A stretch of DNA of 45,834 nucleotides from Limosilactobacillus kribbianus (GTDB taxonomy: Bacteria > Bacillota > Bacilli > Lactobacillales > Lactobacillaceae), in assembly GCF_026413145.1 (NCBI RefSeq), contig NZ_JAOVYZ010000011.1, positions 1-45,834 of the forward strand. The letters run 5' to 3'. Below the pieces are notes generated by a model. That model worked only from the letters and a program-made list of their open reading frames with translations. It had not been told where the DNA came from and did not search any database. Of the stretch, positions 7,248-45,834 are shown piece by piece; position 1 is the stretch's first letter; the number at the start of each line of letters is the position of its first letter. Position numbers and translations under genes: made by a program.

Positions 7248-7344
7248 TTCTTAAATTCCCCTTTACTTTTTTCATTTTCATTCGTCTATATCAATGTAAG
7301 CAGTGGCCACCGCTTATCAAATTAAATTCAAAGGAGTGCCTAAG

Positions 7345-7557
7345 ATGAGTATGGTACGTAAATTTAAGTCCGCGAAGGTTCAATTGACGCTGGTCGGTGA
7401 ACAACATCCCAAGGGCGTAGCGCATCTCTTCAATAACGTTCGCGAAGAAGTCAATGAGGACCAACTGGCAAAGTTAACCCAAGCCATCGAAAGCTTGACC
7501 GGCGAAAAATGCAGTGGCGCCAACGTCATCATTACCGATCACGTCGCAATCTCTTAA
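7345..7557 (+). CDS. DUF1659 family small protein
   Basis: The gene encodes 70 residues from an ATG at 7345 preceded by AAAGGAG. The open frame extends upstream to 7303, but without a ribosome site. It matches the DUF1659 family, small Firmicutes proteins usually found next to a DUF2922 gene, as here. The two products have similar size and a likely beta-rich fold with a conserved T/S-G-E/KKCSGA-type middle. The function is unknown. It is one of the few plus-strand genes here and forms a two-gene operon with the next gene. Confidence 0.8.
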   Translation: MSMVRKFKSAKVQLTLVGEQHPKGVAHLFNNVREEVNEDQLAKLTQAIESLTGEKCSGANVIITDHVAIS

Positions 7558-7582
7558 TTTTGACAAAGGAAGGTAAGCAGAT

Positions 7583-7816
7583 ATGAAATCTCTCAATCTT
7601 ACATTTAAAGGCATCACCGGTAAGAAGCACCTGCTCAAGCTCAGTTATGCCAACGACAATCTCGATGCTAAAACCGTTCGCTTCGCCATGGAGCAAATCG
7701 TCAGCTCCGGCTTGTTTATCAAAGACGGTGAGCAGCTTTATGTCACACCAGTCGCGGCCAAGTACGTTGACACCGTCTCGACTGTCCTCTTCAACGACGA
7801 GCAAGCCGCCGCATAA
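7583..7816 (+). CDS. DUF2922 family small protein
   Basis: This 77-residue protein (KSLNLTFKGITGKKHLLKLS at the N-terminus, then DAKTVRFAMEQIVSSGLF) fits DUF2922, the usual partner of DUF1659. The ATG at 7583 follows AAAGGAAGG. It is 25 bp from the DUF1659 stop and ends just before a strong hairpin. The function is unknown in this family. Confidence 0.8.
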   Translation: MKSLNLTFKGITGKKHLLKLSYANDNLDAKTVRFAMEQIVSSGLFIKDGEQLYVTPVAAKYVDTVSTVLFNDEQAAA

Positions 7817-7845
7817 AATTTTCCTTCCTCCCAAAAAGATAAAGG

Positions 7846-7880
7846 GAGCAGTAATCGAGTGCGATTACTGCTCTTTTTTC
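7846..7880. terminator. Rho-independent terminator between convergent genes
   Basis: A perfect 12-bp stem (GAGCAGTAATCG / CGATTACTGCTC) with loop AGTG is followed by TTTTTT on the plus strand. It ends the DUF1659-DUF2922 transcript. The stem includes the last codons and stop of the convergent YihY gene, so it may also act on that strand, where the U-tract is weaker. Confidence 0.85.
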
Positions 7881-8740
7881 ATTTTTTCCTCATGTTCAAT
7901 CAATTGCCAGAAGTGCTTGCGCTCGTGCAGTTGGCCTTCATGCGCCTCCTGAAGCGTCGCATTAAGTACCGCCCCCCACATGATGATATAGCCGGAAAAG
8001 TCCAGCCAAACCATCATGGCAATGAAGGCTCCGATCGTCTTGTAGGTGACTACGCTGTGACGGAAAATCACCGTGTAGTAGGAAAAGAGTCGCGACAGGC
8101 CCATCCAAAGCAACGCCGCAAGCAGGGCCCCGGCCAGGGCGTAACGCAAGCGCACCTGGGCATTGGGGACAAAGTAGTACAGCAAGGTCAGCGCGATGAA
8201 GAGCACGGTGAAGGTCACCGGCCACCGCAAAGAGCTGAAGATATAGATGTACTTCCGATGAAAGTGGAAGATCGGCTGGGCACTCTTGAGAAGCTGTTCC
8301 CCGATCCCATAGGCCAGGACGATCAGAAAGATGATAATCAAAACGACAATCATCCAAATGAAGGAGATCACCCGGTTGCTGACCGGGTTCTGGTTACGGG
8401 CCACCCCATAGGTCAGGTTAACGCTGCGCTGAAAGGCAGCGATCCCTTGACTGGTCGACCAAAGGGCAATCAAGGCCCCGGTCGTCAGCAGGCCACCGCT
8501 CCCCTGACGCAGGAAGTCGTAGATGAAGGGCTGGATGAAGGTGTAGATCGACTTGGGAACGGCCGTCTGCAGGTAGGACAAGACCGTCTTGGCATTGAGC
8601 CCAACCATTGGCAAAAGGTTCCCAATCACCAGGACTGCTGGGAAAATCGACAGCAGAGTATAGTAAGCCAGGGTCGCTGCCGAACTGGAAATTTGGGCCA
8701 TCTGAAAGTGACGCAGCAGCAGCAGCACGAATTTTTTCAT
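7865..8740 (-). CDS. YihY/BrkB family membrane protein
   Basis: This 291-residue protein has about six membrane spans and the family signatures SSAATLAYYTLLSIFPA (about 17-33), ALIALWSTSQGIAAFQRSVN (about 90-109) and GAFIAMMVWLDFSGYIIMWG (about 238-257). The family (once called ribonuclease BN by error, also BrkB) has no firmly known function and is proposed to act in export or envelope homeostasis. It is a single gene with its own promoter (8788-8796), and its 3' end is folded into the terminator shared with DUF2922. Confidence 0.88.
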   Translation of the reverse strand: MKKFVLLLLRHFQMAQISSSAATLAYYTLLSIFPAVLVIGNLLPMVGLNAKTVLSYLQTAVPKSIYTFIQPFIYDFLRQGSGGLLTTGALIALWSTSQGIAAFQRSVNLTYGVARNQNPVSNRVISFIWMIVVLIIIFLIVLAYGIGEQLLKSAQPIFHFHRKYIYIFSSLRWPVTFTVLFIALTLLYYFVPNAQVRLRYALAGALLAALLWMGLSRLFSYYTVIFRHSVVTYKTIGAFIAMMVWLDFSGYIIMWGAVLNATLQEAHEGQLHERKHFWQLIEHEEKMKKEQ

Positions 8741-8787
8741 TTTACTCGGTTCTTCCGTCGTCCTGACCCCCTAGTTAATATAGGCTA

Positions 8788-8796
8788 ATTATACCA
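8788..8796 (-). promoter_or_regulatory. Extended -10 promoter of the YihY gene
   Basis: Read on the minus strand the site is TGGTATAAT, an extended -10 element (TGn-TATAAT), 48 bp before the ATG at 8740. I see no good -35. It lies downstream of the hairpin at 8813-8845, so the YihY gene appears to be transcribed separately from the permease and from the structured element at 8862-8965. Confidence 0.55.
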
Positions 8797-8812
8797 GAAC
8801 GGTCATAAAAAA

Positions 8813-8845
8813 TAAGACCCGGTAACAAATTGTTATCGAGTCTTA
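8813..8845 (-). terminator. Rho-independent terminator downstream of the YjeM-like gene
   Basis: A 15-bp near-perfect inverted repeat (TAAGACCCGGTAACA / TGTTATCGAGTCTTA) is followed on the minus strand by ATTTTTTAT. It would end transcripts coming from the permease gene and from the structured region at 8862-8965. Confidence 0.75.
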
Positions 8846-8861
8846 ATTTAATGAATGCAAT

Positions 8862-8965
8862 TAACGTCCAGCGGGCCATACAGCTAACCTAGGGCAGAAG
8901 GTGGCGCTGAAGGCGCCGGCTCTCGTCCATAGATAGATACTAGGGGCTCGCTTGTTTCCACGTTA
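8862..8965. ncRNA. Candidate structured RNA or 3'UTR element, identity unknown
   Basis: No open frame covers this stretch, but it folds by hand into nested helices: TAACGT/ACGTTA (8862-8867 with 8960-8965), AGCGGGCC/GGCTCGCT (8870-8877 with 8945-8952), CCTAG/CTAGG (8888-8892 with 8940-8944) and hairpin GGCGC/GCGCC (8903-8907 with 8913-8917). One pair in the second helix is G-U on the plus strand but A-C on the minus strand, which slightly favours plus-strand transcription. On the minus strand it would be the 3'UTR of the permease gene, before the terminator. It does not match any riboswitch I know. Confidence 0.45.
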
Positions 8966-8970
8966 TTTAT

Positions 8971-10482
8971 TTACTTTTGTTCAATGTGATTCCGCTTCGT
9001 CGCAGTCTGGTAGAAGATCAGCGCTACTGCAGCGAAGAAGATTGGACCGGCGATCGTCCAGAAGGCCGTCTGCCAATCGTGCTCCAGCATTGGCTGAATA
9101 AAGGTGAAGAGGATCCCGATGATCAGGATAATCTCAACGAACCACACGATGACGTTTGTCCAGAACTTGCTCTTGAAGGCAACGAATGGCCGCTCGATGT
9201 CAGTCCGCTTCTTGAAGAATGGGAAGGCACCGACTAAGAACAGGTATGGGAAGCAGGTCGAAACGTTGGCCATATCAGTCAGAATGGTGTAGAACTTCTG
9301 GGCGGCAGAACCACCGAAGGCTACCAGGAAGATGATGATGGAAACGATCGTAATCTGCAGCCACATGGCATTGGCAGGCATCCCCGCCTTGTTCAGCTTA
9401 GTCAGCTTCTTTGGCCACAGGTCTGGGTTGGAACCCAAGATGAAGGCCTTGATTGGCGAGTACATCAGAACGAAGAGCGCACCCAAGAAACCGAGGGCCT
9501 GTGAGAAGGCCACGATCCGGGTCATTGCGGAACCCCAGCCAAGGGCAGCGGCATGAGAAAGCCCCAGTGCCGTCGCCAACTTAACCCCGAGAATGTTGAA
9601 AAGAACATAGGTGGCGTTCCCCAGGTTGGTCGTGGAAACCGCAAAGTCGTGCTTGTAGTTAGCGAACCAGCCGGCCATCAAAATCATAATGACATAGGCA
9701 CCAATCGTGAAGACGGATGCGATAATCAGACCACGTGGGAAGGTCTTTTCCGGCTTCTCCATCGAGTCGGTGACGGAACCCAGTGACTCCATCCCACCGT
9801 AAGCGAAGATGGCGTAGACGACGAAGGAAATAATGGCAATCGGCGTCTGGAACTGGGCATTTGGTGACATGATCAAATCCCGTGCACCATGGAACGGCTG
9901 TGCCAAAGCACCACGGTTAGCAATCAAAACAATAATAGCTGCGATGATGTAAATGATATTGACAACCACGGTGAAGATCCCACCGATTGAACCAACCTTA
10001 GCGATCGCGGTCATTCCCCGGGAACTGAAGTAGGTGCAGGCAATCATCAGGATGATCCCCAAGATCCCGATCACTTCGGTCGAGGACAGGCCGGCAAAGT
10101 GCCATTGCTGGGTGGTATCCTTACCGAAGATCAACGCGGAGAAGGTGATCCAAATCCGTGAGGCGGTCGAAACCATCCAAACAATCCAGGAAGCAAGCCA
10201 AACGAAGGTCCCAATAAAGGCCATTCGTTCACCGATCGAGCCGGCCAGCCAGGAGTAAATACCACCCTTGGCGTCCTTAAAGGCGGACCCGTATTCGGCC
10301 ATCATTAAGCCACACGGGAAGAAGAAACAAATCCCCGCTAAGGCATACCAGATGATACTACCGTAACCCATTTGCAGGTAGGCGTTTGAAACATTACCAA
10401 ATCCGAAGATCGAGGTAATGATCATCGTCACCAGGCCAAAGGTAGTAATCATCTTTTTATTATTACTACTTTGCTCATCCAA
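8971..10482 (-). CDS. yjeM: APC-family amino acid permease, YjeM-like
   Basis: This 503-residue protein has about 12-13 membrane helices. The N-terminal helix pair contains GLVTMIITSIFGFGNVSNAY, with the unwound helix-1 glycine region of APC transporters. It resembles YjeM of the glutamate/GABA antiporter subfamily, judged by the MAEYGSAFKDAKGGIYSWL and YAIFAYGGMESLGSVTDSM segments. It imports or exchanges an unidentified amino acid across the cytoplasmic membrane. The start is a TTG at 10482 with a GGAGG site 9 bp upstream. No decarboxylase gene is adjacent, so a role in acid resistance cannot be claimed. It is followed by a long 3' non-coding region with a structured element. Confidence 0.85.
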   Translation of the reverse strand: MDEQSSNNKKMITTFGLVTMIITSIFGFGNVSNAYLQMGYGSIIWYALAGICFFFPCGLMMAEYGSAFKDAKGGIYSWLAGSIGERMAFIGTFVWLASWIVWMVSTASRIWITFSALIFGKDTTQQWHFAGLSSTEVIGILGIILMIACTYFSSRGMTAIAKVGSIGGIFTVVVNIIYIIAAIIVLIANRGALAQPFHGARDLIMSPNAQFQTPIAIISFVVYAIFAYGGMESLGSVTDSMEKPEKTFPRGLIIASVFTIGAYVIMILMAGWFANYKHDFAVSTTNLGNATYVLFNILGVKLATALGLSHAAALGWGSAMTRIVAFSQALGFLGALFVLMYSPIKAFILGSNPDLWPKKLTKLNKAGMPANAMWLQITIVSIIIFLVAFGGSAAQKFYTILTDMANVSTCFPYLFLVGAFPFFKKRTDIERPFVAFKSKFWTNVIVWFVEIILIIGILFTFIQPMLEHDWQTAFWTIAGPIFFAAVALIFYQTATKRNHIEQK

Positions 10483-10746
10483 TGTAATAAGCCTCCAAAA
10501 TATTTAAATTCTTAAATAAAAATAAGAATTTATTTAATAATTCAAGTATAGTCCTTTATTTTAAAAATAAAAGTCTTCTTGGGCGATTCTAATTCTTTTC
10601 TCACGCAAAATATACAGTTTTGCACGCATATTTTATTATTCTTCTGCATAACCTCCTATTTTCTGCCGTTTTATGCATAGAAATGTCCCCAATCGCCACA
10701 GGATTCATGAATTGTTTGATCAATATTTATGCTTAATTGACTGTAT
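10483..10746. other. AT-rich intergenic region upstream of the permease
   Basis: This roughly 260-bp gap between map and the permease gene contains no credible open frame. It is very AT-rich, with an imperfect inverted repeat near 10503-10541 (TTTAAATTCTTAAATAA and TTATTTAATAATT-like arms). It presumably holds the permease promoter on the minus strand. I could not pick a convincing -35/-10 pair, although TATACT near 10545 read on the minus strand is a candidate -10. Confidence 0.4.
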
Positions 10747-10783
10747 AAAAAGCGCCTTCTCTTATAATAGAAGGCGCTTTTCT
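10747..10783 (-). terminator. Terminator of map
   Basis: A 13-bp stem AAAAGCGCCTTCT / AGAAGGCGCTTTT with an 8-nt AT-rich loop ends a few bases after the map stop codon. T-runs on both sides make it potentially bidirectional. Confidence 0.9.
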
Positions 10784-10786
10784 AAT

Positions 10787-11644
10787 TTATTTCTTGTATT
10801 GTTGAGCAATCTTGCGGGCAATTGCACCATAATGGTCCAGGTAACCAGCGTAGTTGTCGTCGTAGAGGTACTTGGCATCGGCCTCAGGATCCTGAGAGGT
10901 CAGGATCTTCGGGCCGTCGTTGGTAACTACCAGGGTGTGCTCGTACTGGCAAGACCAGCCACCATCAGCCGTCTTGGCCAGCCAGCCGCTCGGATCGGAG
11001 GTATCGGCTTCCCAGGTGCCAGTGTTGATCATTGGTTCCACGGTAATCGTCATGCCGTTCTTCAGGCGCAGGCCCTGGCCGTGTTCACCATAGTGCGGTA
11101 CCATCGGATCTTCGTGCATTGTTGGCTGGATCCCGTGGCCGACGAATTCCCGCACGTCGCCGTAGCCATTCTCGTCTTCGGTGTAGTGCTGGATGACGGC
11201 ACCGATGTCACCGATCCGGTTGCCAGGAACACACTGGTCGATTCCCATGAAGAGGGCCTTCTTGGTGACGTCCATCAACTTGGCAATCTCCGGCTTAACC
11301 TCACCGACCGCATAGGACCAGCAGGAGTCGGAGAAGAAACCATCAACGCTGACCACGGTGTCAACCTTGACCAGGTCCCCCTTCTTCAGGATCAGCTTTT
11401 TGCGGGGGAAGCCGTGGCAAATCTCGTCGTTAACGCTGACACAGGTGGCGTACTTGTAGCCTTCAAAACCGATCTGTTCAGCCTTGGCACCCGCCGCCTT
11501 GAAGTACTTACGGGCAAACTCTTCAATTTCCCAGCTGGACATCCCCGGCCGGATAAACTCACGAATACCGAGGTGCATGCCGGCAAGGGCGGCCCCGGCC
11601 TTTTCCATCGCTTCAATTTCACGCGGTGATTTTAAGGTAATCAT
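10787..11644 (-). CDS. map: Methionine aminopeptidase, type I
   Basis: Removes the initiator methionine from nascent proteins. The 285-residue protein carries the type I metal-binding motifs: CVSVNDEICHGFP (about 88-100), KVDTVVSVDGFFSDSCWSYAVGE with the two metal Asp residues (about 112-134), VGHGIQPTMHEDP with the metal His (about 187-199), MTITVEPM with the metal Glu (about 220), and a late YEHTLVVT with the final Glu (about 254). It is somewhat longer than the roughly 250-residue norm at the C-terminus, as is usual in lactobacilli. It is monocistronic, with its own extended -10 promoter and terminator. Confidence 0.95.
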   Translation of the reverse strand: MITLKSPREIEAMEKAGAALAGMHLGIREFIRPGMSSWEIEEFARKYFKAAGAKAEQIGFEGYKYATCVSVNDEICHGFPRKKLILKKGDLVKVDTVVSVDGFFSDSCWSYAVGEVKPEIAKLMDVTKKALFMGIDQCVPGNRIGDIGAVIQHYTEDENGYGDVREFVGHGIQPTMHEDPMVPHYGEHGQGLRLKNGMTITVEPMINTGTWEADTSDPSGWLAKTADGGWSCQYEHTLVVTNDGPKILTSQDPEADAKYLYDDNYAGYLDHYGAIARKIAQQYKK

Positions 11645-11684
11645 TCTCTATGATGTCTCCTTTTTTGACATTTCTACCTTACAC

Positions 11685-11693
11685 AGTATACCA
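11685..11693 (-). promoter_or_regulatory. Extended -10 promoter of map
   Basis: On the minus strand the site reads TGGTATACT (extended -10), 41 bp before the map ATG. A matching element on the opposite strand, TGCTATACT (11720-11728), is a possible distal promoter for the flavodoxin gene, so the intergenic space appears to hold divergent promoters. Confidence 0.5.
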
Positions 11694-11763
11694 CTAGTTC
11701 GCCGATTCCGGGTAAAGCATGCTATACTATGGAATTGATCAAATCTTTTTGAATAGAAGTTGA

Positions 11764-11812
11764 ATCAAAACTAGTGACACTTTTGATAAAATTAGATCAA
11801 ACTAGTGATAAT
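11764..11812 (+). promoter_or_regulatory. Flavodoxin promoter with direct repeats
   Basis: A likely -35 TTGATA (11783-11788), an 18-bp spacer and -10 GATAAT (11807-11812) lie just before the flavodoxin ribosome site. Two near-identical direct repeats, ATCAAAACTAGTGA (from 11764) and ATCAAACTAGTGA (from 11796), are spaced 32 bp apart, about three helical turns. One covers the spacer and -10, which is the geometry of an operator pair. The regulator is unknown. Confidence 0.45.
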
Positions 11813-11827
11813 ATGGAGGAATCTAAA

Positions 11828-12280
11828 ATGAAAGCACTCGTGGTATATGCAACGATTACCGGGAACAACGAAGACGTTGCCGACATCATCACCGAAGTCT
11901 TAGAAAACCAGGACGTCGAAGTCGAGGAAACTGAAATCACAATGGCCGACCCGGCCGACTTCGAGGACGTCGACATTTGCGTCGTTTGCCCATACACCTA
12001 CGACGAAGGGGCCCTGCCGGAAGAAGGGATGGATTTCTACGAGGATCTGCAGGACGAGGAACTGGATGGCAAGGTCTATGGAGTTGCCGGCTCTGGCGAC
12101 ACCTTCTACGGCGACAACTTCTGCAAGGCCGTTGACGACTTTGGCAAAGTCTTTGAAGAAACTGGCGCTACCAAGGGTTCTGAGAACGTCCACGTCAACC
12201 TGGCACCGGAAGAAGACGATATCGTCAAGCTGGATGAATTTGCTAAACAGCTGGTAGAAAAGGCCGGGCAGAATGACTAA
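11828..12280 (+). CDS. Flavodoxin
   Basis: A 150-residue FMN-binding electron carrier. The N-terminus KALVVYATITGNNEDVADII has the phosphate-binding loop T-x-T-G-N of flavodoxins, and GVAGSGDTFYGDNFCKA (about 86-102) is the second FMN loop. The acidic composition is typical. The ATG at 11828 follows GGAGG; an upstream extension of the open frame to 11774 runs through the promoter and is not used. Its partner reductase is not in this window. The stop overlaps the start of the GtrA gene by 8 bp. Confidence 0.93.
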   Translation: MKALVVYATITGNNEDVADIITEVLENQDVEVEETEITMADPADFEDVDICVVCPYTYDEGALPEEGMDFYEDLQDEELDGKVYGVAGSGDTFYGDNFCKAVDDFGKVFEETGATKGSENVHVNLAPEEDDIVKLDEFAKQLVEKAGQND

Positions 12281-12716
12281 GCTGGTCGCGCTTTTCAACA
12301 AGTACCGCTCAATCATCGCCTACCTTTTCTGGGGCGTGGTGACCACGGTTGTTAACATCGCGGTCTTCCAGTTCTTGAGCTCTGGAATTCATTGGAACTA
12401 CGAGCTGGCGACCGTGATTGCCTGGTTCCTGTCGGTGCTGGTTGCCTACTTCACCAACAAGGTCTGGGTTTTTGGCTCTCACTATTCGACGGTCAAAGCC
12501 TTCGTGAAGGAATTCATCCTGTTTTACTTCTACCGAGGGCTGACCTTGATCATGGACCTGATCATCATGTATGTCGGTGTCACCCTGCTGGGCTTCGACT
12601 CACCGATCCAGCAGCTAGTGGTCAAGATCATTGATAACGTGGTCGTGGTGATCGCCAACTATGTCTTCTCCAAGTGGCTGATCTTTCATGATAATCGGAA
12701 GATCGCGGAGAAATAA
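12273..12716 (+). CDS. GtrA family membrane protein
   Basis: This 147-residue protein has four membrane helices and the GtrA-family pattern: IIAYLFWGVVTTVVNIAVFQ in the first helix, then FVLS-like and YFTNKVWVFGS (about 60-70), and a C-terminal KWLIF. GtrA proteins are proposed to flip undecaprenyl-phosphate sugars for teichoic acid or EPS glycosylation. It is translationally coupled to the flavodoxin gene (ATG inside its end), which is an odd functional pairing but common in lactobacilli. A GtrB-like transferase occurs at 3029-3961. Confidence 0.88.
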   Translation: MTKLVALFNKYRSIIAYLFWGVVTTVVNIAVFQFLSSGIHWNYELATVIAWFLSVLVAYFTNKVWVFGSHYSTVKAFVKEFILFYFYRGLTLIMDLIIMYVGVTLLGFDSPIQQLVVKIIDNVVVVIANYVFSKWLIFHDNRKIAEK

Positions 12717-12728
12717 TAATTAAAAATC

Positions 12729-12770
12729 AAAGAGCCTTGGAAGATTTTTCTTCCGGGGCTCTTCAGTTTT
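12729..12770 (+). terminator. Terminator after the flavodoxin-GtrA operon
   Basis: The hairpin AAGAGCC..GGAAGA / TCTTCC..GGCTCTT with a short T-rich loop is followed by CAGTTTTTAAA. It lies 12 bp after the GtrA stop. Confidence 0.8.
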
Positions 12771-12811
12771 TAAATTTCCGGGATCATTTTCTTGAATGGT
12801 GAGACTAAGAA

Positions 12812-14281
12812 TTATCTGTCCCAGACACCGTTGGTACTAAAATGGTAGTTCTTCCCATTAATGTTATACCAGCCGTCTTTGTATATCTTACCGTCGGCTC
12901 CTGCATAGTACCAGACACCATAATTCTTATACCAACCACTAGTCACCAGTTTTCCATCTTTACCGACAATATACTCGCTTTGCACATCACTGCCGGGCAT
13001 CGAAGCACTCCCATCAGATTGTTGACCTGTTACTAAATGATCTGTAACTAGAGAACCATCCATATTAAAACAATACCAGGCATTATCAATATAGTGCCAG
13101 CCATAAAGAATCCGTCCATCATGTTGCCCATCCGCATAGTACCAGGCACCATAGTTCTTATACCAACCACTAGTCACCAGTTTCCCATTTTTGCCGACAA
13201 TATACTCGCTTTTCGCGTCACTGCCAGGCATCGAGGCACTCCCATCAGATTGTTGACCTGCTACTAAATGATCTGTAACTAGAGAACCATCCATATTAAA
13301 ACAATACCAGGCATTATCAATATAGTGCCACCCTTTAGCCAATTGTCCATTTGATAAGCGATATTCCCAGGCACCATAATCATTTATCCAACTACCATTT
13401 GACTTTCCCGAGTTCCATGCTCCCGACGGTTCGAAGTAGTAGCTCTTACCATTAATATTATGCCAGCCGGTCAGCATCCAGGCGTTGGTCGGGTCAAAAT
13501 AGTACCAAGTGTTATTAATTTTTTGCCAACTCTTGAGCGCCCAGGCATTATTCCAATCGAAGTAATACCAGTTGCCGTTAATCTTTTGCCAGCCAGTCAA
13601 GGCCCAAGCATTGTTCCAGTCAAAGTAGTACCAGTTGTTGGCACCGGATTCGAACCAGCCACGATCAGCCCAAGCATTTGTTGGGTCGAAGTAGTACCAA
13701 TGATTATTAATATGTTGCCAACCGGTCAGTGCCCAGGCGTTATTGTTGTCAAAGTAGAACCAGTTACCGGCGCCAGACTTGAACCAGCCAGTCTGAGCAT
13801 AACCCGCATTGTTGAAGTAATACCAGTTGTTATTGATGTGTTGCCATTGGTTGTAAATCCAGTTGCCCTGGTCATCCGTGCGCGACCAGCCCTGATCGCA
13901 GTGAACCCACTGGTTGCTGGCATTGGCCTTCGGCTGCGAAACCGTTAGCGTGCCAGCGTTTACCGCAGCCTGATTGGCGGTTGGGCTCTCCTGCTGCGTT
14001 GTGATTCGATTGGTGGTTGCAGCGGACTGCTGCTGGATAGACTGGTTCTGCTGCCCGGTTGGGCTCTGTTGCTCCGCGTTCGTTGTGCCAGCCTGTTGTT
14101 CAATATTTGACTGTGCTGGTTGCGTCGTTTCTGTCTGCGCTACAGTCGTCGTTGCTGAACTTGCATCGGCATGCACGCTGCTGGCTGCCAAGCCACCCAG
14201 CAAAGTAACCGCGGCGATTGTAATCGTTGCCGTTAGCCAATTTTTACCGGCCTTATACAGTTTCTTATGCTCCTTATTCAA
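12812..14281 (-). CDS. Secreted surface protein with glucan/cell-wall-binding YG repeats and no catalytic domain
   Basis: The 489-residue protein starts with the KxYKxGKxW signal type (KLYKAGKNW, residues 6-14), a hydrophobic core and a likely cleavage after SSVHA. A Ser/Thr/Gln-rich linker (about 38-125) follows. From about 126 to the end the protein consists of aromatic repeats (GWQ.INN.WYYFD..NAW type) like the glucan-binding domains of glucansucrases and choline-binding proteins. Two copies of an approximately 85-residue unit (HYIDNAWYCFNMDGSLVTDH to VTSGWYKNYG) are nearly identical, which points to recent internal duplication. There is no LPxTG anchor and no glycosyl hydrolase domain. 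It probably binds EPS/glucan or the wall and promotes aggregation. The upstream promoter carries a cre-like site. Confidence 0.85.
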   Translation of the reverse strand: MNKEHKKLYKAGKNWLTATITIAAVTLLGGLAASSVHADASSATTTVAQTETTQPAQSNIEQQAGTTNAEQQSPTGQQNQSIQQQSAATTNRITTQQESPTANQAAVNAGTLTVSQPKANASNQWVHCDQGWSRTDDQGNWIYNQWQHINNNWYYFNNAGYAQTGWFKSGAGNWFYFDNNNAWALTGWQHINNHWYYFDPTNAWADRGWFESGANNWYYFDWNNAWALTGWQKINGNWYYFDWNNAWALKSWQKINNTWYYFDPTNAWMLTGWHNINGKSYYFEPSGAWNSGKSNGSWINDYGAWEYRLSNGQLAKGWHYIDNAWYCFNMDGSLVTDHLVAGQQSDGSASMPGSDAKSEYIVGKNGKLVTSGWYKNYGAWYYADGQHDGRILYGWHYIDNAWYCFNMDGSLVTDHLVTGQQSDGSASMPGSDVQSEYIVGKDGKLVTSGWYKNYGVWYYAGADGKIYKDGWYNINGKNYHFSTNGVWDR

Positions 14282-36212: not shown

Positions 36213-37588
36213 GGATCACCCCCACATACATGGGGAATACCGTAATTGTTGCCATTGTTCACCCCTCCTCATGGGATCACCCCCACATACATGGGGAATA
36301 CAGTTGATACGCGGGTGCGCAGGCTCTAATACAAGGATCACCCCCACATACATGGGGAATACCTGCTGCTGAGTCCATCGTAGCCGCAAGTAAAGGGATC
36401 ACCCCCACATACATGGGGAATACTTGCCGAAAATGAAAAGCGGGTTGACTACTGGGGGATCACCCCCACATACATGGGGAATACTAAAATTAGTTCTCAT
36501 TGGAGGAACCTAGGCAGGGATCACCCCCACATACATGGGGAATACATGTTGCGTGACTTTAAGTACGCCAGCAAGCATAGGATCACCCCCACATACATGG
36601 GGAATACGGGAAAGTTTTTTCGGTAATGCCATTACCATTAGGATCACCCCCACATACATGGGGAATACCATCAAGGTAGTACCACCATAGATCCCGGCAA
36701 AGGGATCACCCCCACATACATGGGGAATACTAGCCAAAGAGCCGGCCAAAGGCAACACTATCGGGATCACCCCCACATACATGGGGAATACCACTTTGAT
36801 TGCTTCGCTAACGGTGAAGTTATCAGGATCACCCCCACATACATGGGGAATACGGGACTAGCAGGTGGACTACTTGGCCCAGCGTAGGATCACCCCCACA
36901 TACATGGGGAATACTTTTCTTTTTGCCCTAATTAGGCAATCAATTTAGGATCACCCCCACATACATGGGGAATACTGCCCTGCAAGCTAACGATTTTTTA
37001 GCCCGGAAGGGATCACCCCCACATACATGGGGAATACTTCAATCAAAGGACCGCCATCTTACTACAATGGGGATCACCCCCACATACATGGGGAATACTG
37101 TCTGAACATTCTCGCCAGATGTCAGGGTTAGGGGATCACCCCCACATACATGGGGAATACGCTTCGTTGACATCTTTGAGAGCCAGCCCAGTGGGATCAC
37201 CCCCACATACATGGGGAATACTTATGGTTTCAATCCCCAGGGACAGTGGCGTAACAATCACCCCCACATACATGGGGAATACTTAGTCATCGACCTGAAA
37301 AACGGCGATAAAGTGGGATCACCCCCACATACATGGGGAATACTCGGGGAATGATACAGATACCCTGCCACTGGTGGGATCACCCCCACATACATGGGGA
37401 ATACTAATCAAGCACTACGTGAAATGAATGCGCAACAAGGATCACCCCCACATACATGGGGAATACACTTTGGAAACGACCCGTTGGTGCCGGTCAAGCA
37501 GATCACCCCCACATACATGGGGAATACTCCTTGCCAATCCCAAACATCTTGTGCCAGTTGAGATCACCCCCACATACATGGGGAATAC
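36213..37588 (-). CRISPR. Type I-E CRISPR array, 23 repeats and 22 spacers
   Basis: Repeats are 28 bp; on the minus (crRNA) strand they begin GTATTCCCC and end GGGGGTGATCC, with the inner palindrome of I-E repeats. Spacers are 33 or 34 nt. Orientation follows the 5'-handle (GTGATCC type of lactobacilli and S. thermophilus), so transcription runs leftward, away from cas2. The two repeats nearest cas (37500-37527 and 37561-37588) end in T instead of C. The repeat at 37255-37282 has its last two crRNA-strand bases changed (ATTG end). All others are identical, including the distal one at 36213, so there is no decayed terminal repeat. Spacers show no obvious match within this window. Confidence 0.98.
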
Positions 37589-37617: not shown

Positions 37618-40071
<2,454 letters not shown>

Positions 40072-40088
40072 TGCTTCCCTCCTCATTT

Positions 40089-40778
40089 CTACAAGCTTGC
40101 CATAACGTCATGATCTGTATTATTAAGCGAGTTTGCCAGCTTTACGTGGAGGGTTACAACAGCACGATATTGATGCCAACGATGAGCTTGGTCAAAGCTA
40201 CCAACCTTATCTTTCACCAACGTAGATGCTTTATCTGGTAATAGATCTGCATCAGCAATAATCTCTGCTAAATAGCTCCCCTTTCGCTTTTGATACCATT
40301 CAGACGCCTGCCATTCAGAATTTTTTAAAACACTGACTGGGTCTTGATTATCAAAAATTTTGGTTTTTAACGGCCCTGCTGGGACATTAGCCCGTCTACC
40401 TAGCGAAAGTTGGAATTTGGGATGATGTAATGCATTATTAATTTGCTCAATTTTGTTACTATTTCCACTAATGGCGGCTATGAAAACAGCATCTTGCAAA
40501 TAATCCCGATAGCTTAGACTACGTTTTTGGTGTGCACGATCATATTCAATAATCTGAAAATCAGTCATTGTTTGCCCTGGCTGGTCGATTCGTACCGCAA
40601 CTTTTAGTTGATTAAGATTACTAATTCGCGAATCATCTCTTCTATATCCTAAAGCTGCTGCGATCATCCCTATCAAAGCACTTTTGGATGGATAATGATA
40701 GCTCGTTCGTCGACTGAAAGTCGCTTGATTTCCGTATGACTGAAGTGGACCAGTCAATTTAATCGTTAGAGTTTTCAT
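40089..40778 (-). CDS. cas5e: Cas5e (CasD) Cascade subunit
   Basis: Binds the crRNA 5' handle at the foot of Cascade. The 229-residue RAMP protein starts KTLTIKLTGPLQSYG, with the thumb region YPSKSALIGMIAAALGYRRDD (about 30-50) and a late SLGRRANVPAGPL (about 130). It overlaps the cas7 3' end by 20 bp. The ATG at 40778 is better spaced from GAGGG than the GTG one codon earlier. Confidence 0.94.
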   Translation of the reverse strand: MKTLTIKLTGPLQSYGNQATFSRRTSYHYPSKSALIGMIAAALGYRRDDSRISNLNQLKVAVRIDQPGQTMTDFQIIEYDRAHQKRSLSYRDYLQDAVFIAAISGNSNKIEQINNALHHPKFQLSLGRRANVPAGPLKTKIFDNQDPVSVLKNSEWQASEWYQKRKGSYLAEIIADADLLPDKASTLVKDKVGSFDQAHRWHQYRAVVTLHVKLANSLNNTDHDVMASL

Positions 40779-41859
40779 CACTAACCCTCGTTTCGATAAC
40801 CTTTACGACATCGTCAATTAAAGAAGTAATGTTATCTTCCTGATTTGCAATTAACGACTTTTCAAAATTAGTCAGAGCAAAGGTAGCAATTGGCTTTTCA
40901 ACAAATTTTTGCGTTTGCTCGTACTCTTTCTCTAAGCGCTTGATAGAAGATTCAACATAACCCTGCTGTGACTTAACAGGCTGTTCAAATGCAGTTACAA
41001 GATTCACTGGAGTATCCGCTCTAATTGTTACCATCACATATTGAGGGACAGTCTTATTAGCAAAAGTATTCTGTTTTCCTGTCGGCATCGACATTACAAA
41101 GTCCTTAATAAAAAGCTTCAAACCTTCCAGTGTAGCCGTCTTGTCACCTAAGTTATGCGCAAGCTCGCAGACATTGACGTTGGCATACCGATATAACGTT
41201 GCAGAGTCGTATTCAATCGTTCCCAGCATTGCAGAGCCAGATTCATCGTCTTCTTTTGCATCATCAACTGCTGTGTAATAGTCAAATTCTGGAACAATTT
41301 CATGTGTTGAAATAGCGTGGGCAACTTGACATGATGCATCTACATTCAGGGAAGGATCATCGGCAACCATCCGCCCAAATAACGCCATATCCAAAGAACG
41401 TTCACTATTCAATATTTTTTTGATTGCTTTACTGTCAATCTCATCGTTTTCAAGAACGTACTTTGCTAATTTTTCAACTTGTCCATGACTAATCATCAAT
41501 AGAGCCTTTGTCCGACTCGTCTTCTTATCAAGTTTGACTTTAGCTTTATTGAAAATAGTGAGTGCCATTTGTAAAGCCTCACCATCAGCCAAATCGGCCT
41601 TTTGTTTTTGAACTTCTTTAGCCAACATTTCTGGTCCTCGCGTGGTACGGATCCCTTTAAGCCAATCAGTCCCATTTTCAGCCATCTGATTTTCAAAGGC
41701 CATTCGCACTGCACGCTTCCAGCTCTGTGATGAAACTCGCGACCGTGTAACCCCACCATAAACAGCCGTTTTAGGAGAACCCGTATCATCTCGATTAATA
41801 TTTGAAGACGGCACTGATTGCAAAACGTTAATGTCAACATACAAATTTTGGTTATTCAT
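40759..41859 (-). CDS. cas7e: Cas7e (CasC) Cascade backbone subunit
   Basis: Six copies form the crRNA-binding backbone. The 366-residue protein begins LYVDINVLQSVPSSNINRDD and continues with the family segment GSPKTAVYGGVTRSRVSSQS (about 27-46). Later segments are DMALFGRMVADDPSLNVDAS (about 156-175) and the HAISTHEIVPEFDYYTAVDD region (about 181-200). It appears intact. The gap to cse2 is 5 bp and GGGAG precedes the ATG. Confidence 0.95.
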   Translation of the reverse strand: MNNQNLYVDINVLQSVPSSNINRDDTGSPKTAVYGGVTRSRVSSQSWKRAVRMAFENQMAENGTDWLKGIRTTRGPEMLAKEVQKQKADLADGEALQMALTIFNKAKVKLDKKTSRTKALLMISHGQVEKLAKYVLENDEIDSKAIKKILNSERSLDMALFGRMVADDPSLNVDASCQVAHAISTHEIVPEFDYYTAVDDAKEDDESGSAMLGTIEYDSATLYRYANVNVCELAHNLGDKTATLEGLKLFIKDFVMSMPTGKQNTFANKTVPQYVMVTIRADTPVNLVTAFEQPVKSQQGYVESSIKRLEKEYEQTQKFVEKPIATFALTNFEKSLIANQEDNITSLIDDVVKVIETRVSDENSND

Positions 41860-41864
41860 AGTAA

Positions 41865-42461
41865 TTATTCTCCCTTTTGATTGTCATTGTTTTTGGGTAT
41901 CCAATAATATTGTTGTCCCCACATCAGGCATACCTGTCGTGCAGTTTCAGCGCTAAATTGAAATGCATAAAAATCGCTTGCTAACTGAGCAAAGTCAATC
42001 TTTTCTTTGGGAAAATTGCTCTTCAAGATTTGGACAAGGTGATATATTGAATTTTCAATACTTTCAAAACTACTATTGCCTAAAATAGTCTGTACCCGCC
42101 GATCAATTGCCTTTTGGCGTACCTGATCTTGCCGCAATAATTGCAATGCAAAAAATAGTGCTTTTCCTTCTTTATCTCTGCCTGCAGACTCATAAATTAA
42201 GGTTCCATCATTTCCTTGCTGGTAAATTGCAAAACAGTGCAGCGCTGCAAATATTGCTTTCTCGGAATACGTTGGGAGGCCATTCTTGCTTAGGTCTTTT
42301 TCTTTCATCGCATTGAATAAAATGGGCCATACTATAGTCATATTACGGTCAGTTATATGTCTGGAATTTCGCAATGCTGCTAATTCACCTTTATTGGGTT
42401 TGCCATTATTCCAAAGCTGATGGATAACCTTAGCAGTAATACTGCTAATGTGATTAGTCAT
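41865..42461 (-). CDS. cse2: Cse2 (CasB) Cascade small subunit
   Basis: The 198-residue helical protein shows the Cse2 pattern: AALRNSRHITDRNMTIVWPI (about 27-46), AIFAALHCFAIYQQ (about 68-81), RDKEGKALFFALQLLRQD (about 93-110), and RRVQTILGNSSFESIENSIYHLVQ (about 121-144). The dimer stabilises the displaced strand in Cascade. The start has GGAGG at good distance, and the gap to cse1 is 11 bp. Confidence 0.92.
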   Translation of the reverse strand: MTNHISSITAKVIHQLWNNGKPNKGELAALRNSRHITDRNMTIVWPILFNAMKEKDLSKNGLPTYSEKAIFAALHCFAIYQQGNDGTLIYESAGRDKEGKALFFALQLLRQDQVRQKAIDRRVQTILGNSSFESIENSIYHLVQILKSNFPKEKIDFAQLASDFYAFQFSAETARQVCLMWGQQYYWIPKNNDNQKGE

Positions 42462-42472
42462 TTTTATCCTCC

Positions 42473-44158
42473 TTAACCATTTTTTATGGTTTTCATTACT
42501 GAAGCCTTAAAGATACGATAGTCGATAAAGATGTTTTCTAATTTCTCATCCTTTATTTGGCCACGAATTTCGCGTGGCGTGGCAGTATTTAAAAGTTTTT
42601 GGCCAGTTTCCATAACGATGTATGCTGCCTTTTCATTCCATTCATTAATTCGCATACTCCGCTCATCCTGACTGGACAAACTAGCCAACCACTCATAAAA
42701 AGGGACATTTAGTTGGCTGTAATATTCAGCTGTAACTTGATTAGCAAAATCAGTTTGTACCGAAGGAGAAAGGCCGCGAAGATTAGCTACATTTTTAGCA
42801 AAATACGACAGGTATAAGCCTAACTTTTGCGTTCTTACAACCGTTTCTTCAATTCGTGTTGGCCACCCAGCGTCAGTTAAGTCTTTGTCGAATAAAACGT
42901 CCGCATTAACCCGCATTTCATCCGCAAACTCAGCGGCTGGTGATTGTGATGTTGCGTTTCCGTCATTAATTAGGCCTACCGTAGCAAGATGGACTGAAAA
43001 ATCTGGCTGAATCATGTTTTTACTTTGCAAATTATTAAGCCAAGCTACTATTCCTGGCTGAACCCCGTTTGAGTTTTGCGTACTAATGTATTGCCCAAAA
43101 TTACGCCACATTGCTCTCCCTAATGAATTCAGCCAACGCAAGGTCGGTTTTATTGGCTCTTTATCCTTTACTTTCCAAGTTGTCATTGGCTCCAAAAACG
43201 CATCCTCATTATCTAGTTTTGGCAAGCCAGCACTAAAGATAGTTGGTCGATTGCCATTCCATTCAATATGAATTGCCCGCGACCAAGTGGTATATAGTTG
43301 TGCAATATTTTGGGGAAAATTATTATCTAGACGCAATTGAATATAATCTAGCGCTGGCAATTCCCACGCCGGCCTTTGAGTAAAGACGTTTTTGCCTAGT
43401 CGGACTGACTGTGGAACTAAAACCAAGTTCAACATTAAAGTTTCAAACAGATTATTTCCAACGGCAAAAACCGGATCTAGGTCATACAACCAGCCTTTAG
43501 AGACCGAAAACTTCTCTTTTGATTTTACCTTGGTCTTATCAGTTACCGCAGTAAAGTTTTGATAGGTAATCAGCCACCGAGTTAATTCAGAAAACGAAAC
43601 ATCATCCTTATGTAACGGCGCATTAGGGGAAAAAATATCGGGTTTATTGTTACTTTCAGAAATTGTTCGATTAATTTGTTTAACCGCAACCGTTCCCTTA
43701 CCGTTCCCTACAGATTTAGTCTTTGGTACTAATGAATCATACTCTTCCCGTGTCACTTGGTAGAATGGTGTTTCAGCGTCAAGGAGATCAAAACGATTAG
43801 CATATGACTGGAGATATTCGAATAGTTCGGATGTAAATTTCTTTTGATTATAAAGATTTTCCCACGTTGCTAATAAATCTCTTTCGGGTCTCTTTCCTTG
43901 AAACTTAAAAGATTTTTCATCTATGTTTTGCCATTTATATACTTGTCCTTCGGCGCTATACCGTGAGTACACAGTTGTTAAAATTGCTAGTAGGAACCGT
44001 AAGATTGCTAAGTCTTGAGATTTCATTTCTCCGGCCAATTGACGATATTGGGCAGCATTTCTAAAGAGTGTTTCCAGCGAAATTTCTTGCTCTCGGTTAT
44101 TTTCATCAATAACTTTAATCCAGGGTTCGGTTACTAAACTAAAATGTTTTCTGTCCAT
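42473..44158 (-). CDS. cse1: Cse1 (CasA) Cascade large subunit
   Basis: Reads the PAM and recruits Cas3. The 561-residue protein starts RKHFSLVTEPWIKVIDE, the hallmark N-terminus, with AILRFLLAILTTVYSR (about 50-65) and a C-terminal four-helix region. I use the ATG at 44158, 6 bp after AGGAGG; the ATG at 44175-44177 region includes that site. It overlaps the cas3 3' end by 20 bp. The reading frame is intact. Confidence 0.94.
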   Translation of the reverse strand: MDRKHFSLVTEPWIKVIDENNREQEISLETLFRNAAQYRQLAGEMKSQDLAILRFLLAILTTVYSRYSAEGQVYKWQNIDEKSFKFQGKRPERDLLATWENLYNQKKFTSELFEYLQSYANRFDLLDAETPFYQVTREEYDSLVPKTKSVGNGKGTVAVKQINRTISESNNKPDIFSPNAPLHKDDVSFSELTRWLITYQNFTAVTDKTKVKSKEKFSVSKGWLYDLDPVFAVGNNLFETLMLNLVLVPQSVRLGKNVFTQRPAWELPALDYIQLRLDNNFPQNIAQLYTTWSRAIHIEWNGNRPTIFSAGLPKLDNEDAFLEPMTTWKVKDKEPIKPTLRWLNSLGRAMWRNFGQYISTQNSNGVQPGIVAWLNNLQSKNMIQPDFSVHLATVGLINDGNATSQSPAAEFADEMRVNADVLFDKDLTDAGWPTRIEETVVRTQKLGLYLSYFAKNVANLRGLSPSVQTDFANQVTAEYYSQLNVPFYEWLASLSSQDERSMRINEWNEKAAYIVMETGQKLLNTATPREIRGQIKDEKLENIFIDYRIFKASVMKTIKNG

Positions 44159-45740
44159 CCTGGTCCTCCTTTTCATACATCAAGCCAAGGGTGTTCGAAT
44201 AATGAATTTGCCAATTATTGAGGCTAACTGTTTTCTGCTCATTTAACGGCAATACTAGAATTCCTTTGAGCCAAATGTTATTCTGCCATTCTGAAAAGCT
44301 ATTATTCGTCTTGGTTTCGAGATCCTTAATCGTTTTTTCAATATTGGGCGTTACCGCATTCGGTAACCGGATTAACTGCTGTGCAATTTCATAGTCCTGA
44401 ACATCACTTAATGGCCGACCATCCAGGAGAAAATCTCCTGCCTGAGTATGTTGAATCAAAATGACTTCAATTGATTCCTTAATGTCACGTACCGCAGCCT
44501 CCGCACTCGCCTCATCAGCCACACCGCGGCGATCTCGGTCCAGCCAACCATGGATAGTATCAGTTGGGGAAGGAAAATCAATCTGGTACACCTGGGCCTT
44601 CTGCCGTTCTTTTTCAATAATCAGTCGTTCTTGGTGCTGTGCTTCGCGAATTCCAACAATTTCACTATCGGTTATGGGATCATACACAAGTTGTACAAGT
44701 CGCGAAACATCTTCAGGAACCCTAATCGTGTCTGGAAAAAAATAATCGGTTTTCATTAACCAGTATTTTTCGTAGATAGCTTCATTTGCATCCCCATAAT
44801 CGCCCAATGAGTTAATCCCAAGAATATAGGTCATCGGTTCAGTCAACTTAGCAGGACGCTCTATTTTATGACGGTGAAGTCTGCCAATCCTTTGAATTAG
44901 CAAGTCGATCGGTGCTACGTCAGTAAATAGAACATCAAAATCGATATCAAGTGATTGTTCAAGTACCTGTGTTCCAATCACAATCATTCTTTCCGGTCGA
45001 TCAGCATTCTTTCCAATTGCTGATTGCAAGCGCTCCTCTAATTTTTCACGATCAGGAGCGAGAAACGCTGAATGAAGAACTAATTTAGGAATATTGTCTG
45101 GAACCAGCTGCGATAGCTTTTGCGCCCGTTTAACCGTATTTACAATAATCCCGGCAACACCACCCTCGCTGATGCTTCTCACAGCCTTATTTATTAGCTC
45201 TTCGTCATCACTATTCAGGCGAATAATTTTATTTATTTTAGAATTACCTGATTTTGGAAACTCCGATAATTGCTTAACTTCCTTACCATCCATGTAAGTA
45301 AGCAGCGGGTACGCCTGGCTATCCTCCAAACCAGTATCTGCTTCAATCGGCTCACCATATTTGCCGAAATAATATGCCTGCATCAGTTCAGCTCTTTTTT
45401 GCTTTGGAAGGGTTGCTGACAGAGCAATTACCGGTATGCTATAGACTCCAAGCCAAACTAGTGCTTGTTCAAGATAGGAACTCATATATGTATCATATGC
45501 ATGAACCTCGTCGATAACTACGACCTTACCGCTCAAGCCAAGATGGCGTAAAAAGAGGTGTTTCTGCTTCAAACTCATTAAAAGTAAATGGTCAATAGTT
45601 CCAATTGAAAAATCCGCCAGTATAGATTTTTTACCGCTAAACCAGCTATTAATTACAACTGAGCCTTCTTCACCAACATTTTCTGCTTTCGGCAATCCAA
45701 GATTTTCCTTATGGCAGATTGTAAAATTTAAGTTGAACAT
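44139..45740 (-). pseudogene. cas3: cas3, 5'-truncated by an insertion sequence
   Basis: The frame holds 533 C-terminal residues of a type I-E Cas3. Helicase motif II is VVVIDEVHAYD (near 73), motif III ALSATLPKQKR (near 105), with later motifs GTQVLEQSLDIDFDVLF and DLLIQRIGRLHRHK (about 255-295) and a C-terminal domain. Intact Cas3 proteins are about 900 residues; the HD nuclease domain, Walker A and motif Ia are missing. The frame meets TAA immediately before the first ATG (45738-45740). That ATG has no ribosome site, and IS sequence follows. The visible part can neither bind ATP nor cleave DNA. The lost half may lie past the IS. Confidence 0.92.
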
Positions 45741-45834
45741 TTAAGTGGACAGAAAAACCCATCAAGGTCTTTAATGGTGTTACCACACAATCCATTAGAA
45801 AGAAGGACCTTGATGAGCACCACTATTTTATCAT
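45741..45834 (+). mobile_element. Left end of an insertion sequence inside cas3
   Basis: From about 45741 the sequence stops matching Cas3 and becomes a non-coding end region followed by a new gene start. An inverted repeat, CATCAAGGTC (45760-45769) with GACCTTGATG (45806-45815), extended by TAATGG/CCATTA, can fold over the ribosome site and ATG of the transposase. The exact boundary and target duplication cannot be fixed because the other end is outside the window. Confidence 0.75.
45813..45834 (+). CDS. Transposase N-terminus (partial), probably IS30 family
   Basis: ATG at 45813 preceded by AAGAAGGA opens a frame reading MSTTILS up to the window edge. Some lactobacillus IS30 transposases begin in this way, but seven residues cannot prove the family. 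Confidence 0.5.

Follow-up and report, generated by a model that had tools for sequence, protein, structure and literature searches.

The stretch of DNA analyzed here (the window, 45,834 nucleotides) is the entire contig C9 of a draft assembly of Limosilactobacillus kribbianus comprising 105 contigs and 2.11 Mb. It carries a type I-E CRISPR (clustered regularly interspaced short palindromic repeats)–Cas locus that has lost an intact cas3, the gene for the helicase–nuclease. We consider it likely that an insertion sequence (IS) of the IS30 family broke this gene and that the cell thus tolerates a prophage in its comG operon, which its own CRISPR array targets. Interference is probably off in this strain, and the split of cas3 would be the simplest cause of that loss.

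The 3′ part of cas3 (44139–45712, minus strand) adjoins an IS end at 45713, with a transposase-like ATG at 45813, and in these respects a sequence-only reading of the window was correct. That reading also held that the insertion removes the nuclease and ATP-binding half of the gene. This half is instead intact on a second contig, C65, which opens with the right end of the IS and continues directly into the 5′ part of cas3. Since the IS end recurs across the assembly (27 left-end and 24 right-end matches), the apparent loss is an effect of the contig edge. The same four bases, TTAT, stand on both sides of the element, and the two cas3 flanks, joined at this duplication, form one frame of 912 codons with no internal stop. 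The joined gene is collinear with the cas3 of five relatives, ungapped at the junction in four of them and lacking five residues there only in the fifth. Because the flanks share TTAT, join in frame, and align with relatives, the IS30-family element appears to have split cas3 at 45713 without loss of any cas3 sequence. The break falls within the first helicase domain, between what we take to be the PTQAT (motif Ia) and DEVH motifs; the closest solved structures to Cas3 by sequence are 4q2c, 6c66, and 4qqw. The insertion looks recent, given that the joined cas3 carries no further decay and that the left end of the IS is identical to other copies over 100 bases.

Both ends of the element match plasmid copies of an IS30-type transposase gene; a related full plasmid copy of 1054 bp differs at two of 122 bases at the left end and at none of 121 at the right, while the middle of the cas3 copy is unassembled. 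Four-base flank partners were recovered for several of the 20 left ends compared, out of 27 in total. Sequence past 45834 had been expected to yield the remainder of cas3 and the target duplication; the window ends inside the IS, and both were found on C65, so that this expectation held in substance, while the junction running from C9 through the IS to C65 is absent from the assembly. By these sequence features C9 and C65 would be neighboring contigs. It is conceivable that the ends of C9 and C65 derive from different IS copies, or from a mixed population, and that cells hold an intact cas3; the unassembled junction and a further contig with a TTAT flank, C85, leave room for such an artefact. 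But the duplication, the reading frame, and the collinearity all fit a split gene, and the assembly, 99.95% complete, holds one Cas3 HD domain, which makes this explanation very unlikely. Plain assembly error was likewise judged unlikely, the duplication and the frame being in agreement even though C85 shares TTAT.

Searches of the assembly with the cas3_core profile and the Cas3 HD-domain family PF18019 turned up no second cas3. The only HD-domain match in the genome lies on C65, and of eight cas3_core matches only that of the window exceeds the cut-off, with the piece on C65 and the six remaining matches below it. The expectation that the genome holds no other cas3 is borne out as far as these searches reach.

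Further support for a loss of Cas3 function comes from the array beside it. Thirteen of the 22 spacers of array A, read in the transcribed direction, match the strain's own genome with zero to three mismatches, at 13 places outside the two arrays: A1, A3, A9, A12, and A14 exactly; A2, A7, A18, and A19 with one mismatch; A6, A8, and A17 with two; and A15 with three. On four contigs, the best matches of the remaining nine spacers have 9–15 mismatches. Chance matching was ruled out as a source of such hits, the best matches of 440 shuffled spacers on the same four contigs having 10–16 mismatches. Eleven of the 22 spacers match a single prophage, with all of these sites on contigs C10 and C50. A 5′-AA flanks 10 of the 11 prophage protospacers, against a background of 8.1% (P 1.3e-10); A17 is the sole site without it, and there AA appears if the first base is omitted. 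An AA-type protospacer-adjacent motif (PAM) is consistent with the motifs AAT and AAY reported for type I-E systems of Ligilactobacillus salivarius (PMC11288051).

The seed of a type I-E spacer comprises positions 1–5, 7, and 8. Counted in this way, eight of the 22 spacers (A1, A3, A8, A9, A12, A14, A18, and A19) have both the PAM and a clean seed on the cell's own prophage. Together with the failure to find a second cas3, this supports the loss of Cas3 function that the sequence-only reading proposed. The two matches outside the prophage, both without AA, are to chromosomal genes: an unnamed open reading frame (ORF) beside a GHKL-domain gene (A2) and dnaK (A6). For these two spacers (A6, window 37254–37222; A2, 37499–37467), the last two bases of the preceding repeat, TG and CT respectively, equal those next to the protospacer, which would fit a shift of the piece that was inserted. 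Array B, on C65 with 10 repeats, matched nothing beyond the arrays; for the eight of its nine inter-repeat stretches that are of normal length, the only row recovered against the contigs was B6 at seven mismatches, which was not counted.

The targeted prophage is divided between two contigs. C10 carries T2SSE and T2SSF genes of the comGA/comGB type, followed by a large serine-type integrase, antirepressor, Erf, and replication genes, and then by terminase, portal, capsid, tape measure, and tail genes. Genes for tail proteins, an endolysin, a helicase, a PAPS reductase-like protein, and a ParB-like protein lie on C50, which ends with a YtxK-like methylase gene. ComGC- and ComGE-type matches were present among the scanned ORFs of the prophage region, and from gene order we infer that these are the small ORFs preceding the methylase on C50. 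Both contigs end in an IS with an AACC flank, and of 24 right ends only this one pairs with that left end over four bases; because this flank uniquely pairs the two ends, C10 and C50 can be read as one prophage within the comG operon, of about 49 kb (48,901 letters, including one N). The targets are distributed across its genes: A7 with A12, and A8 with A9, fall in two large tail-protein genes, A3 and A14 in a weakly tail-like gene, A17 and A19 in the helicase, A15 in the PAPS reductase-like gene, and A1 in an ORF with no family assignment, while A18 lies outside any ORF of at least 60 amino acids. In the right arm of the prophage on C50 (L175:8121–11089), helicase, PAPS reductase-like, and ParB-like genes stand in a row and take four array A matches, with A15, A17, and A19 within the helicase and PAPS reductase-like genes. 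The same IS family also seems to break a prophage tail gene (L174:19633–19998 on C10 and L175:138–848 on C50), where one tail ORF runs on for 12 bases within the IS and the next starts just past its other end.

Relatives with an intact cas3 provide a control. In three of these (G012, G032, and G047), considering only cas-adjacent arrays of the I-E type, none of 102 spacers had a PAM-correct self-target with a clean seed, against eight of 22 here, a difference whose Fisher P of 2.9e-7 should be taken as no more than indicative, since spacers cannot be treated as independent. Two AA-flanked matches came from the 20 spacers of G012, each with mismatches in the seed, and the 37 spacers of G032 and 45 of G047 gave no matches outside array-like sequence. 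A Limosilactobacillus mucosae genome with a cas3 stop near the 3′ end (G026) gave two matches without an AA flank; a weaker match on its contig C32 and two on C78 were left out.

From these observations a sequence of events can be proposed. Transposition into cas3 would have ended the cutting of targets, since the half with the nuclease and P-loop can now be made only separately from the remainder of the helicase. Without a working Cas3, the cell would tolerate the comG prophage: the array would have been built against relatives of that prophage and would no longer kill a cell carrying it, allowing the prophage to persist. Six of the 11 prophage spacers carry one to three mismatches, and the spacers may for this reason have been gained from related phages before the prophage settled. 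Primed adaptation, which requires Cas3 (PMC6990116), should also be lost, while acquisition by Cas1–Cas2 alone may continue. In a plasmid assay, I-E cas loci disrupted by an IS have been found to interfere no longer (PMC10359306).

Several points weigh against this account. The junction across the IS is unassembled, and C85 also carries the TTAT flank among the 24 right flanks compared. The control omits a fourth intact relative (G027, 15 spacers), other CRISPR types, and other arrays. The mismatches are all that speaks for the order of events, the scans for source phages having been uninformative: a megablast comparison of phages with C50 and with the right half of C10 yielded no matches, a viral-contig scan for spacer-source phages gave none, and another viral-contig scan gave 13 loci with a sole spacer match, A15 at seven mismatches, so that no spacer-source phage was identified. 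Finally, survival could also be explained by an anti-CRISPR of the prophage, which might have protected the lysogen first, with the IS arriving later in the absence of selection. Anti-CRISPRs have often been discovered by following self-targeting spacers next to prophages (PMC6990116), and the prophage holds many small ORFs without family assignment. But the cas3 break suffices alone, and a scan that covered 55 of 60 ORFs of up to 330 amino acids in the prophage region named no anti-CRISPR among the 25 families listed of 113 in NCBIfam and the 25 listed of 76 in Pfam; we regard this order of events as improbable.

It might also be supposed that both cas3 pieces are made and reassemble into a working Cas3. 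The break lies where one of the five relatives lacks five residues, and so maybe in a loop, and the 3′ part could be read in frame from an ATG that the IS end provides (the listed ORF reaches 45740, its ATG sitting within the IS end). But by eye no ribosome-binding site precedes that ATG, and a working Cas3 should be lethal to a cell with eight clean, PAM-flanked self-targets; reassembly is hardly credible. The break in cas3, with tolerance of the comG prophage as its consequence, is the reading we prefer, and the features on which it draws are collected in Table 1.

Table 1. Features of the type I-E locus and the IS30-family element (window coordinates unless a contig is named)
Feature	Position	Strand	Family match or remark
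cas3 3′ part (DEVH motif, second helicase domain, C-terminal domain)	44139–45712	−	TIGR01587 177 bits, PF22590, PF18395
cas3 5′ part	C65:103–1290	−	HD domain PF18019 2.5e-43; GIGKSE P-loop (Walker A)
TTAT, left copy of 4-bp target duplication	45709–45712	.	same four bases after IS right end on C65
Left end of IS30-family element, cut by contig end	45713–45834	+	recurs in assembly; plasmid copies annotated IS30 family transposase
First codons of IS transposase	45813–45834	+	read by eye
−10-like hexamer TAAAAT, could read out of IS into cas3/cse1 (weak lead)	45825–45830	−	position inferred from plasmid copy
cse1 (cas8e), large Cascade subunit	42473–44176	−	PF09481 2.5e-93
cse2 (cas11)	41865–42461	−	TIGR02548
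cas7	40759–41859	−	TIGR01869
cas5	40089–40781	−	TIGR01868
cas6	39442–40086	−	TIGR01907
cas1	38490–39440	−	TIGR03638
cas2-dnaQ fusion	37618–38493	−	PF09707 and PF00929; start taken as CTG 38493
CRISPR array A	36213–37588	−	23 repeats, 22 spacers; A1 at cas side

Apart from cas3, the locus has what is expected of a type I-E system. The cas genes run leftward through the window, from the cas3 3′ part through cse1, cse2, cas7, cas5, cas6, cas1, and cas2-dnaQ to the CRISPR array; the full Cascade set with cas1 and cas2 is thus present, as are 28-nt repeats, spacers of about 33 nt, and a 5′ PAM beside the protospacer. The Cascade genes, cas1, and cas2-dnaQ are all open frames with the expected family matches, as the sequence-only reading had them, and its count of 23 repeats stands, while its description of these as clean is nearly right, failing for three with altered 3′ ends. 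The match of cse1 to NCBIfam TIGR02547 (62.3 bits) lies under the cut-off of 70.05, and the Pfam cut-off is far exceeded. The N-terminus of cas2-dnaQ was set by alignment with relatives, the listed ORF beginning at TTG 38457; the aligned start is CTG, not ATG, and overlaps the cas1 stop (CTGA, window 38490–38493), likewise in G027.

Whether Cascade is still made bears on what remains of the system. No promoter-like site was found on the cas-sense strand of window 44000–45834, and the best cas-sense candidates lie upstream of cas3 on C65; Cascade must consequently be transcribed through or from the IS. Counts of promoter-like sites in the window, on C65, and in the related IS copy do not exceed those of shuffles in any case. 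It is possible that the whole locus is silent, the IS having also stopped transcription into cse1 and the genes downstream and left a recent, functionless wreck. The distribution of promoter-like sites points in this direction, as does the transposase, which runs against the cas genes. But no terminator-like site was found in the window part or the related full IS copy, making read-through possible, and that copy holds one outward promoter-like site (TAAAAT; one found against a shuffle mean of 1.3, its −35 part lying beyond the contig end). We rate a silent locus at somewhat less than an even chance.

An alternative fate is that of a natural dCascade, in which Cascade and CRISPR RNAs (crRNAs) are still made, bind at least eight PAM-flanked prophage sites, repress the genes there, and help to keep the phage dormant. 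No Cascade frame is interrupted and the array is whole, and at least eight prophage sites, in tail, helicase, and other genes, combine the PAM with a clean seed. When Cas3 is blocked, type I-E Cascade can act as a transcriptional repressor (PMC5727412; Luo 2015, cited in PMC6990116), and the Cascade of a split-cas3 L. salivarius binds DNA in a cell-free assay (PMC11288051). However, the IS parts Cascade from the cas3-side promoter, with promoter-like sites not above shuffles; most targets are inside late genes rather than at promoters; and the intact frames may only reflect a recent insertion. Such repression is unlikely, and it adds a function to the explanation by cas3 loss rather than replacing it. 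The locus does combine guides against its own genome with a nuclease that, to judge from the split gene, would be inactive, as expected of a nuclease-dead regulator, which would also have to express and bind its effector complex and so alter gene expression.

Cas7e occurs in seven of 50 genomes of the genus, the source genome included, and all seven have a Cas3 HD domain. In a survey of named genomes by Cas7, covering the best 80 of 575 loci, 73 have cas3 as a single frame of 800 codons or more, none of these in several pieces; in two it is cut by a contig end. The other five are without cas3: three hold only 0.7–2 kb upstream of cas7, and two (L114 and L146) have none nearby. In L114 (Ligilactobacillus equi), cse1 to cas6 are present at 7260–12935, while the 7 kb upstream lack cas3 and the 21 kb examined gave no match to cas1 or cas2; in L146 (Lactobacillus sp. 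ESL0701), a type I-E locus at 10001–11744 has only cas7 and cas6 matched. Two loci of L. mucosae DSM 13345 (L084 and L062) carry an in-frame cas3 stop before the last ~65 codons, at a position where the sister genome L063 reads through; L084 is counted among the 73, its profile match passing through the stop near the 3′ end. On its sequence this is a second apparently damaged I-E cas3 of the genus. A scan of genome contigs with one Cas7 query gave no matches, and neither did a search of plasmids with the cas genes.

Cas loci that an IS has inactivated in the presence of an element they target have already been described, and the present locus stands out by how many PAM-correct guides it has against a single prophage. 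Natural IS insertions in cas genes number 163 cases in 57 genera (PMC10359306), and here, as in those, an IS with its duplication lies inside a cas gene. In one of them, Erwinia amylovora 7-3, an IS10 inactivates a type I-E cas locus, and 11 spacers of the strain's arrays could target the resident plasmid p7-3 (PMC10359306); here, the element is of the IS30 family, the gene is cas3, the resident is a prophage, and the case is known from sequence alone. Closer in phylogeny is L. salivarius NCK 1352, also of the Lactobacillaceae, with a I-E system, cas3 in two coding sequences, self-targeting, and an AA-type PAM; there, a single self-targeting spacer falls on epsG and Cascade binding was shown cell-free, while the passages on this strain name no IS (PMC11288051), in contrast to the 11 spacers on one prophage here. 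AcrE1 of Pseudomonas aeruginosa similarly disables Cas3 while Cascade can still bind, but as a protein inhibitor, with repression by a designed crRNA demonstrated (PMC5727412), rather than a genetic break. The type I-E array of Escherichia coli K-12 also matches resident prophages and is said to restrain cryptic ones, through partial matches, an effect on prophage mRNA, and a proposed RNA interference (PMC9782134); the matches here are full-length, PAM-flanked, and to DNA. Lactobacillus acidophilus NCFM likewise has self-targeting spacers (six of them genome-targeting) beside a disabled cas locus, although there the whole cas cassette is gone (PMC6990116), whereas here only cas3 is broken. No literature on the present locus was evident from the titles or abstract openings of open-licence papers.

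A 2020 review states that natural nuclease-dead CRISPR gene regulators had not been reported, and suggests from the ease of cas3 disruption that nature has sampled such systems (PMC6990116). This strain would make natural nuclease-dead regulation directly testable. If a dCascade does operate here, it would represent a former immune memory that helps to keep a phage dormant; and a single IS hop may let a previously recognized phage settle.

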